Under the pieces are notes generated by a model, which saw only the letters and a list, made by a program, of their open reading frames with translations, had not been told where the DNA came from and made no database searches. Both the position numbers and the translations under genes were made by a program. From contig JAOZQY010000031.1 of the NCBI GenBank assembly GCA_029931975.1, positions 1 to 43,950 of the forward strand: a stretch of DNA of 43,950 nt. Reading direction: 5' to 3'. Shown in pieces: positions 25,180 to 33,476 of the stretch. This DNA is from Bacteroidales bacterium (GTDB lineage Bacteria; Bacteroidota; Bacteroidia; Bacteroidales; GCA-2748055). How positions within the stretch are numbered: the first letter of the stretch is position 1; every line of letters starts with the position of its first letter.

Positions 25180-26961
25180 TCAATCGTCAAAATCCAGATT
25201 AAACCGGGTTTTGAGCTTTTCGAGTTCAGGGTTCTTCCCCACCAGAAATTCCAGTTTGTCCTGCTCTGTGTATATTTTCTTACCATTCTGCGTGTTCTCA
25301 GACACTTCTGTAACAATTTCTATGGCTGACAATCCAGTAACATTCTTAATATATGCTAAAAGTCCTGATTTGATATTCTTTAAAAAATTATCCCTTTGCA
25401 ACTCGCTGTTCAACAATACCAGCAATGCTCCATCATTCCTGACCACCGGACTGTTATTCACCAGTGTACTGTAAATACGAGGTTTCGTTTTCTCAATGGA
25501 GGCTGCATAATCCTTCCATGCCTTAATTATAGCATCAGGTCCTGCCGTCTGGGGCTTATCAGGCACCATCTCATGCTGCTCCAGAGATTCAGATGATTGT
25601 TTCTCCATCGGCTCAACGGCCCTGGCGGTACCTCTCAGACCATCTTTTATGGAAATGCCCGTGCTCCTTACAAGATTGCTGGCACCATTCCAGTTTTCGT
25701 TCTTTTCCACATTCGGTTGAACTTCAGATTCAGGGACTGGCTGAGCCTCTGATTCAGAGACTATTTGAGCCACAGGTTCTTGTGGACTTTTAGTCTGGGG
25801 CTCCTTTTTTTGAACTGATGCAGACAGCTGATCAGTTTTAGACTCAGTTACTGTTTTTTTTTTTGAAACCCCGGAAAGGTTGGCCAGTTTAACCAGTGCA
25901 AGCTCAATGGTTAGGCGTTGATTCCGGCTAACTCTAAACTGAATATCCGTCTGGTTGCATATTTCGAGTCCGGAATACAGAAACTGCAGAGTTACTTCCT
26001 TCGATTGTGAGAGATACTTCTCCTTAATCCCAGCTCCAACCTCCATCAATTGAACCGTCTCCGGATTTTTGCAAACCATCAGATCCCTGAGGTGGGCCGC
26101 ATACCCATTGATGAAGTTTCGGGGATCAAATCCCTTTGAAAGAATCTCATCAAAAAGGAGCATGGCAGAAGCCACATCCCCTTCAAGCAGCGAGAATGTG
26201 AGCTTAAAGAAATATTCATAGTCCAGAATATTCAGGTTATTAATCACATCCTGGTAGCGAATCTTCTCCCCTGAAAAACTAACCACCTGGTCGAAAATGG
26301 AAAGTGCATCCCGCATGGCCCCGTCTGCCTTCTGTGCAATGACATGCAGTGCATCTTCTTCGTATTCAAGCTTCTCTTTTCCTGCAATGCCCTTCAGGTA
26401 TTCCACCGCATCTTCCACACGAATCCGGTTAAAGTCAAAAATCTGGCAACGGGAGAGGATGGTTGGAATGATTTTATGTTTCTCTGTGGTTGCCAGGACA
26501 AAGATGGCATGTGCGGGTGGTTCCTCCAGGGTTTTCAGGAAAGCATTAAATGCAGCCTGGGAGAGCATATGAACCTCATCTATTATATAGATGCTATAGG
26601 TGCCAATCTGGGGGGGGATTCTAACCTGTTCGGTAAGCGTTCTGATATCATCCACCGAATTATTGGAAGCAGCATCTAATTCATGAATGCTGTATGAGCG
26701 GTTCTCATTGAAGGAAATGCATGACTCACACTTATCACAGGCCTCTCCTGCATCAGAGATATTTTCACAGTTGATTGTTTTGGCAAAGATCCGTGCACAG
26801 GTGGTTTTCCCCACTCCACGCGGTCCGCTGAAAAGATAGGCGTGTCCCAGGTGGTTGTTCAAAATGGAATTCCGAAGAGTGGTAGTCAGAGAAGGCTGAC
26901 CAACTACATCATTAAAACTTACCGGTCTGTATTTTCGGGCTGATACAATAAATTTATCCAT
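25180..26961 (-). CDS. dnaX: DNA polymerase III subunits tau/gamma
   Basis: Clamp-loader ATPase; tau also links polymerase cores and helicase. 593 residues from the ATG at 26961 (MDKFIVSARKYRPVSFNDVVGQ); an upstream in-frame ATG at 26982 precedes the promoter. Walker A is GPRGVGKT (46-53), zinc cysteines are C65, C75, C78, C81, and the DEVH box is in IYIIDEVHMLS. Clamp-loader domains I-III end near residue 365. Directly after, SKKKT is encoded in an 11-A run (25854-25864 as T on the plus strand), with stop codons in both other frames just downstream, pointing to a slippage-made gamma form. The following Ser/Glu/Pro/Gln-rich linker (about 370-470) and C-terminal domain are tau-specific. Confidence 0.97.
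   Translation of the reverse strand: MDKFIVSARKYRPVSFNDVVGQPSLTTTLRNSILNNHLGHAYLFSGPRGVGKTTCARIFAKTINCENISDAGEACDKCESCISFNENRSYSIHELDAASNNSVDDIRTLTEQVRIPPQIGTYSIYIIDEVHMLSQAAFNAFLKTLEEPPAHAIFVLATTEKHKIIPTILSRCQIFDFNRIRVEDAVEYLKGIAGKEKLEYEEDALHVIAQKADGAMRDALSIFDQVVSFSGEKIRYQDVINNLNILDYEYFFKLTFSLLEGDVASAMLLFDEILSKGFDPRNFINGYAAHLRDLMVCKNPETVQLMEVGAGIKEKYLSQSKEVTLQFLYSGLEICNQTDIQFRVSRNQRLTIELALVKLANLSGVSKKKTVTESKTDQLSASVQKKEPQTKSPQEPVAQIVSESEAQPVPESEVQPNVEKNENWNGASNLVRSTGISIKDGLRGTARAVEPMEKQSSESLEQHEMVPDKPQTAGPDAIIKAWKDYAASIEKTKPRIYSTLVNNSPVVRNDGALLVLLNSELQRDNFLKNIKSGLLAYIKNVTGLSAIEIVTEVSENTQNGKKIYTEQDKLEFLVGKNPELEKLKTRFNLDFDD
25854..25864 (-). promoter_or_regulatory. Candidate slippage site for gamma production in dnaX
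   Basis: A run of 11 A on the coding strand sits at codons 366-370, at the boundary of clamp-loader domain III and the tau-specific part. In frame it reads TCA-AAA-AAA-AAA-ACA. Adding one A leads to KKKNSN then TGA; losing one A leads to KKKQ then TAA. Both produce a protein of about 370 residues. Thermus dnaX uses transcriptional slippage at an A run for the same purpose, whereas E. coli uses ribosomal -1 frameshifting. Confidence 0.6.
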
Positions 26962-33104: not shown

Positions 33105-33476
33105 CAGATGTAAATCTGCCGTTTGCCCTATTTTTTTACTCGATAATTTGATGAAATTATTGTTTCTTATGTCTGAATTCTGCACCTCAGGAGTGATTGC
33201 ATTAAACTATATATTGAATTGGGAGGACTAAAGGTTTAAATAACAATCCATTAAGCTTATATTAACATCGAATTTAGTTATCTGCCTGGTAATCTGCACG
33301 TTACGGGAATTGATTTTTTTTTCATTTTCTAAAGAGTTGACCTTAAAACGGATATAATATTTCTGAGAGTTTCAGGGCTTGTTCAGTTTTTTTTTAACTT
33401 TTTTTTCACAATCTTTGTTTTAGGAATCCTGAGGGATCTAAGTGTATGAAACTAACCTGTAAAATCGTTGTTTACG
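33105..33476. other. 370-bp region upstream of dnaA
   Basis: The region holds a small stem CAGAT/ATCTG at 33105-33118 just after the MCE stop followed 10-15 bases later by a T run (weak terminator), several long T tracts at 33311-33323, 33386-33406, an AATCTTTG sequence at 33410-33417 that approaches the -7 consensus, and a 12-codon frame starting at 33446. No DnaA boxes of the TTATCCACA type were found, so I do not call an origin. Confidence 0.5.

Follow-up and report, generated by a model that had tools for sequence, protein, structure and literature searches.

Previous studies have established transcriptional slippage on a run of nine A residues (A9) for dnaX of Thermus thermophilus (PMC1088944, PMC5009743) and -1 ribosomal frameshifting for dnaX of E. 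coli (PMC5009743). In addition, a GeneTack survey of 2013 (PMC3711429) listed 17 two-ORF dnaX genes with a poly-A site from 12 genera, nine of them with 10 A, plus three of Chlorobi with 7-9 A, and slippage was suggested for them. Some of these genera may lie within the group studied here. A review of 2012 (PMC3290774) stated that most other bacteria keep no dnaX frameshift signatures and may not make gamma.

In the present study, we analysed a dnaX gene of a Bacteroidales bacterium in a stretch of 43,950 nucleotides (contig JAOZQY010000031.1), hereafter the window. Like Thermus dnaX, this gene encodes tau in one ORF, carries a sense-strand run of at least nine A after the clamp-loader domains and has stops soon after the run in both other frames, with gamma predicted to arise from slipped mRNAs. 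The Thermus type is further marked by mRNAs of mixed A-run length and by gamma at about 1:1 with tau. The window's gene differs from Thermus dnaX in having A11 instead of A9, in belonging to another phylum and in being known here from sequence alone. Its run also starts in codon 366 of a gene of 593 codons, where domain III ends, whereas the Thermus run lies seven-eighths through the coding sequence (PMC1088944). In the two-ORF genes of PMC3711429, too, the gamma and tau parts are separated by a poly-A site, mostly A10, and their layout recurs in 56-58 relatives of the window's gene; the latter, unlike that type, has tau in the zero frame. Like E. coli dnaX, it is predicted to yield tau plus a gamma that terminates soon after domain III. 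Unlike E. coli dnaX, it lacks A_AAA_AAG at the site, both of its other frames are closed, and its relatives show no enrichment of Shine-Dalgarno (SD) sequences or, by a weak test, of stem-loops.

The first-pass annotation of the window had described this dnaX as a third lineage with the same outcome as Thermus and E. coli. This wording was too strong, because PMC3711429 already lists its 17 genes. The proposed slippage at the run is of a known kind, and the single-ORF form and its extent in this lineage seem to be undescribed. The accessible part of PMC3711429 describes neither the single-ORF form in this group nor an exchange of layouts. Our literature search, which left most subscription journals beyond its reach, found no account of the conservation of the site across the group, of layout switching or of slippage in coaBC.

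The dnaX gene of the window and its predicted products

The features of the locus are as follows.

25180..26961, minus strand: dnaX, DNA polymerase III subunit tau, 593 aa; ORF above the cut-off of NCBIfam NF011531; the zero frame continues through the run
25855..26961, minus strand: domains I-III, residues 1-369, the whole content of the predicted gamma (Pfam PF13177, PF22608, PF12169)
25854..25864, minus strand: candidate A11 slippage site, coding nt 1098-1108, beginning in codon 366; a run of at least nine A stands at the same junction in 166/201 class-level loci
25848..25850, minus strand: TAA closing the frame after -1 A (or +2 A), predicted gamma of 370-371 aa
25844..25846, minus strand: TGA closing the frame after +1 A (or -2 A), predicted gamma of 371-372 aa
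25540..25853 (approximate), minus strand: variable linker from domain III to the C-terminal domain, by comparison of relatives
25186..25539 (approximate), minus strand: conserved tau-only C-terminal domain, about residues 475-592, found in another frame in split relatives

The gene starts with ATG at 26961 and stops at 25180 on the minus strand. When it was tested for tau in one ORF, the whole 593 aa were found to be encoded from the ATG, and the product also scored above the cut-off for TIGR02397 (NCBIfam). In the coding strand, the run reads TC[A AAA AAA AAA A]CA, that is, exactly 11 A, and the codons at the site are TCA AAA AAA AAA ACA. Domain III (Pfam PF12169) spans residues 245-369, and its end at residue 369 places A11 at the end of domain III, which confirmed the earlier claim that the run follows directly on this domain. 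The stops close by in both alternate frames (KKKNSN-TGA and KKKQ-TAA) were likewise confirmed from the sequence. The product of about 370 residues with domains I-III only was recomputed as 370-372 aa for a change of one or two A in either direction: one extra A yields ...SKKKNSN-stop (372 aa), one A fewer yields ...SKKKQ-stop (370 aa), and both +2 and -2 A terminate after 371 aa. Solved clamp-loader structures include E. coli gamma constructs of 368-373 aa, so that the predicted gamma matches a functional subunit of the clamp loader in size. The statement that other long A runs are missing from coding frames in the window also held, since the runs of at least nine A at 33314, 33387 and 34931 lie outside ORFs of at least 60 aa.

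We propose, with a probability of roughly 0.83, that A11 is a programmed slippage site in dnaX at which RNA polymerase slips, giving both tau and gamma. RNA polymerase would slip on A11 and produce dnaX mRNAs with a mixed number of A. The mRNAs with 11 A, or with three A more or fewer, would encode full-length tau, which would tether polymerases, by analogy with E. coli. The remaining mRNAs would encode gamma of 370-372 residues with domains I-III, a clamp loader subunit unable to tether. That transcription slips, how efficiently it does so and the synthesis of both proteins in the organism of the window are points that we infer.

Elsewhere in the window, a search of Rfam at gathering thresholds found nothing, and the scan for promoters and terminators gave a result within the range of shuffles. 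A run of G8 on the plus strand at 26610-26617 reads as C8, starting at nt 345, on the coding strand of dnaX; the 49 other loci of the same comparison set held no run of seven or more C or G at this position.

Conservation of the run and layouts of dnaX in relatives

The run was evaluated in 201 class-level loci: 51 came from 61 genomes at the level of genus, family or order, 79 from 80 named loci of the genome collection, and 71 from 72 additional genomes at order or class level. In the other 10 of the 61, no dnaX match extended from the N-terminal end over the site. Partial dnaX matches were present in two of these ten, G010 (A11 at the site) and G033 (none at the site); both were kept outside the 201, as was G226, which has A10 downstream at about nt 1246. 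L051 was left out as a duplicate of L014. L014 and L087 stop at a contig edge and were not assigned a tau frame, and L067, L091 and L105, which have no run, sit on cut contigs. These loci are not independent samples, as certain groups are over-represented and there may be overlap between named and other genomes. The term class refers to the grouping of the genome collection, and NCBI ranks place the named carriers in several classes.

A run of at least nine A (A9-A13) was detected between nt 1030 and 1260 in 166 of the 201 loci, with A10 in 117, A11 in 26, A9 in 16, A12 in four and A13 in three. It was present in all 13 loci read in the genus (12 within the 201 and one more), in 10/10 loci of other genera of the family and, by the same search, in 16/29 loci of the rest of the order. 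After clustering at 75% identity, 56 of 80 loci retained it. Runs of this length were absent from nt 1-1029 in all 201 class-level and all 54 other-class loci, and they occurred beyond nt 1260 in three of the 201. According to NCBI ranks, the named carriers belong to Bacteroidales, Marinilabiliales, Flavobacteriales, Sphingobacteriales, Cytophagales, Chitinophagales and Saprospirales. For other classes of the phylum, 54 loci were read of 223 genomes (among them L207, L209, L375-L391 and L395-L414), and A9-A10 stood at the same junction in 20 of the 54: 2/17 in a set of mostly best matches, and 11/17 and 7/20 in two sets spread over families. These results indicated that the run site is older or wider than the class. 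The first-pass annotation had named conservation in relatives as a check, and the relatives were found to hold both the run and the stops in both alternative frames.

The run was missing from 35/201 class-level and 34/54 other-class loci, which counts against the proposal. In these loci, either gamma of this origin would be dispensable or the sites would have moved, and gamma may be absent or otherwise made in groups that lack the run. The run and the lysines were missing together in several groups (e.g. L072, L078, L080), and all three loci with titles that NCBI places in Bacteroidaceae had no run. L049 has a split dnaX with the tau part in another frame and without any A run, which could point to recoding by another signal, to a pseudogene or to faulty assembly. 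L126, also without an A run, has an in-frame TAG at dnaX codon 367, at the gamma/tau junction with 366 residues before it; the tau part resumes behind the TAG in the same frame, and stop readthrough or an error is possible.

Signs of selection were observed at the site. Across loci, the runs begin in all three codon phases. Lysine codons within the run showed an AAA:AAG ratio of 424:41, compared with 2326:1024 in the first 1029 nt, and KKK at the junction was seen in only one of the 35 loci without a run, so that the lysines disappear along with the run. The free codon phase, the AAA excess and the loss of lysines with the run together suggested that it is the run itself that is conserved, not the lysines as such. 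Tau stands in the zero frame in 106 genes; of these, 104 have a stop within eight codons in the -1 frame, and 92 have one in the +1 frame. Both alternative frames are closed within this distance in 91/106, compared with 16% at control positions 15-65 codons downstream, which were measured in the same way. The count was 33/40 when genes were clustered at 75% identity, and in other classes it was 14/17, against 14% for the control. The conserved run thus looks like an old, selected device rather than a sequencing accident. Most of the class and part of the phylum keep a dnaX signature with stops for slips both ways. This favours the view that production of a short clamp loader is under selection in bacteria distant from E. 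coli and Thermus. Cultured species carry the run, and the role of gamma can be addressed there.

The tau C-terminal domain was located with an HMM built in this analysis. In 58 run-bearing class-level genes, it lies in a frame other than that of the N-terminal part. Two of these, L029 and L062, are doubtful, with apparent frame errors away from the run; they were kept in the 58 and omitted from the tree counts. In all split genes except these two, the zero frame, which encodes gamma, closes no more than six codons from the run. Between the run and the C-terminal domain, the tau frame stays open in 56/58, and 41/58 contain no ATG there. Taken together, these two counts suggested that making tau in the split genes very probably needs a frame change at the run. 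The same direction (-1 for a ribosome, or one extra A) is required in 52 of the 58, and the opposite shift is required in five certain run-bearing split genes (L023, L031, L036, L128 and L169). The earlier proposal of gamma made by slippage at the run was therefore supported, in that the relatives with gamma in the zero frame show that a frame change must be productive in the lineage.

A FastTree tree of the first 343 DnaX residues shows at least 19 changes of layout among the genes that carry the run. In the genus of the window, A13 occurs in G007, whose zero frame encodes gamma; in the family of the window, 4/4 loci of genus g3 are split. Elsewhere the split layout is uniform, in 17/17 loci read of genus g45, 6/6 of family f38 and 7/7 of family f43. 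Split dnaX genes that seem frameshifted or gamma-only are, on this evidence, probably whole genes. The switching of layouts suggests that an indel in an essential gene can be nearly neutral when its expression is already heterogeneous.

Proposed slippage by RNA polymerase and its rivals

The stimulators that accompany E. coli-type frameshifting were sought at the site. The mean fold z of the downstream segment was -0.33, compared with -0.21 for the control (p = 0.45, 164 loci); this test is weak, as E. coli dnaX itself scores from -1.7 to 0.4. By the same weak test, the downstream segment of the window is mildly stable, with a z of -2.1. SD-like sequences upstream were found in 11/164 relatives against 9.0 expected, which is no enrichment, and none of the five SD-like pentamers sought was present in the 30 nt before the run of the window. 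The heptamer A_AAA_AAG is absent from the zero frame at the window's site, where A_AAA_AAA stands instead. With neither SD sequences nor hairpins enriched, the latter by the weak test, stimulators of the E. coli type were rejected. Among 25 tRNA matches, an incomplete set for which 150/184 candidates were scored, the only anticodon found for tRNA-Lys was TTT (UUU). In PMC5009743, the state of a single tRNA-Lys(UUU) is linked to ribosomal shifting in E. coli.

The main rival of RNA-polymerase slippage is a ribosome that changes frame on the A run, through -1 programmed frameshifting or free sliding on poly-A. The same products would result, and sliding on poly-A would produce the same stops. 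We consider this route unlikely, though it accounts for part of the data. The zero frame holds A_AAA_AAA heptamers, the run ends in AAG in a number of relatives, and sliding of ribosomes on iterated AAA was shown in E. coli (PMC4363877). The single tRNA-Lys(UUU), the downstream z of -2.1 in the window and the shared -1 direction of 52/58 split genes also count against slippage by RNA polymerase. However, the +1-frame stops, which -1 shifting does not need, are near as well (92/106), five split genes require the other direction, and runs of 10-13 A are longer than the heptamer that suffices for -1 shifting. SD stimulators were not enriched either, nor, by the weak test, were hairpins. The occurrence of shifts both ways, with no enrichment of stimulators of the E. 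coli type, favoured slippage by RNA polymerase, as in Thermus. Runs that are long and free in phase, with stops in either alternative frame and shifts both ways, are expected from such slippage.

In the split relatives, the tau C-terminal part could be a separate, re-initiated protein that needs no recoding. Some split genes do have a possible start codon (ATG, GTG or TTG) in the tau frame no more than 20 codons from the run, and an ATG occurs somewhere before the domain in 17/58. Against this stand the 41/58 genes with no ATG from run to domain and the frame that is open up to the run in 56/58; on these counts re-initiation was rejected as very unlikely. A neutral lysine-rich linker, with slippage as incidental noise, was judged still less likely. 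The run does lie at the start of a variable linker, and A10-A11 runs occur in other ORFs of the genome. The assembly (4.76 Mb, 366 contigs) contains four runs of A11, both strands summed. In 20 other stretches we counted 24 runs of at least nine A or T, of which six, with A10-A11, lie on the coding strand inside ORFs of at least 400 aa: L222 (GH42-like), L224 (CHAT-TPR), L226 (CoaBC), L227 (AsmA), L230 (unidentified ORF) and L232 (cyclase-TPR). A run at the very start of an ftsK ORF (L221) is excluded from the six. Long A runs in the ORFs of this genome are rare, not unique, and chance was therefore judged by conservation and not by rarity alone. Two control runs of the same genome, A10 of AsmA and A9 of TyrRS, were absent in relatives (0/9 and 0/17, respectively, with the site covered); for the cyclase-TPR gene as a control, there was no match at E<=1e-60 in 30 relatives. 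In dnaX, by contrast, position and length are conserved, the lysines are gone when the run is gone, alternative-frame stops are enriched, and tau would be unlikely in split genes without a frame change. The chance linker was rejected on the AAA bias, the loss of lysines with the run and the unconserved controls. An error of homopolymer length in assembly or sequencing is the least credible explanation. The window does come from an assembly of 366 contigs, and some layout changes among MAGs, such as A13 in G007, could be miscounts. However, A10 recurs in named isolates (e.g. L060, L063) and single-contig genomes (e.g. L134, L145), and the split layout holds throughout the loci of g45 (17), f38 (6) and f43 (7). 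The first-pass annotation had raised homopolymer variation in the assembly as a possible refutation; the recurrence of the run in independent MAGs, named isolates and single-contig genomes indicated that it is not an assembly quirk. Sequencing error was thus contradicted as an account of the run, though not of individual run lengths.

coaBC as a second candidate

We found a candidate with the same architecture in coaBC of the same genome (C78, 4080-5291). An A10 run (L226:1532-1541) lies at the CoaC/CoaB junction, with stops in both other frames. Among 79 coaBC loci read (50 plus the best 29 of a second listing, mostly best matches and hence not a class frequency), 42 had a run of at least nine A (A9-A13) at this junction, 29 of them fused and 13 split. 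The 16 loci read in the genus and the 10 read from the family's other genera all had the run. In 25/29 fused genes, stops close both other frames within eight codons. In 8/13 split genes, the open frame of CoaB contains no ATG, GTG or TTG before the first conserved motif of CoaB. These sequence features suggested coaBC as a second slippage candidate, which adds a metabolic gene to dnaX.

Whether the two genes share one device is a more tentative matter, to which we give slightly less than an even chance. Poly-A slippage would then be an ancestral general device that yields two lengths per multidomain protein in at least dnaX and coaBC. In such a device, slipping would supply both products anyway, so the DNA-level frame after the run would be nearly neutral and layouts could swap between fused and split. 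In total, 14 of the relatives read have coaBC in two frames, 13 of them with the run. The remaining one, L306, is split without a run, and in another split coaBC, L302, an ATG overlaps the stop.
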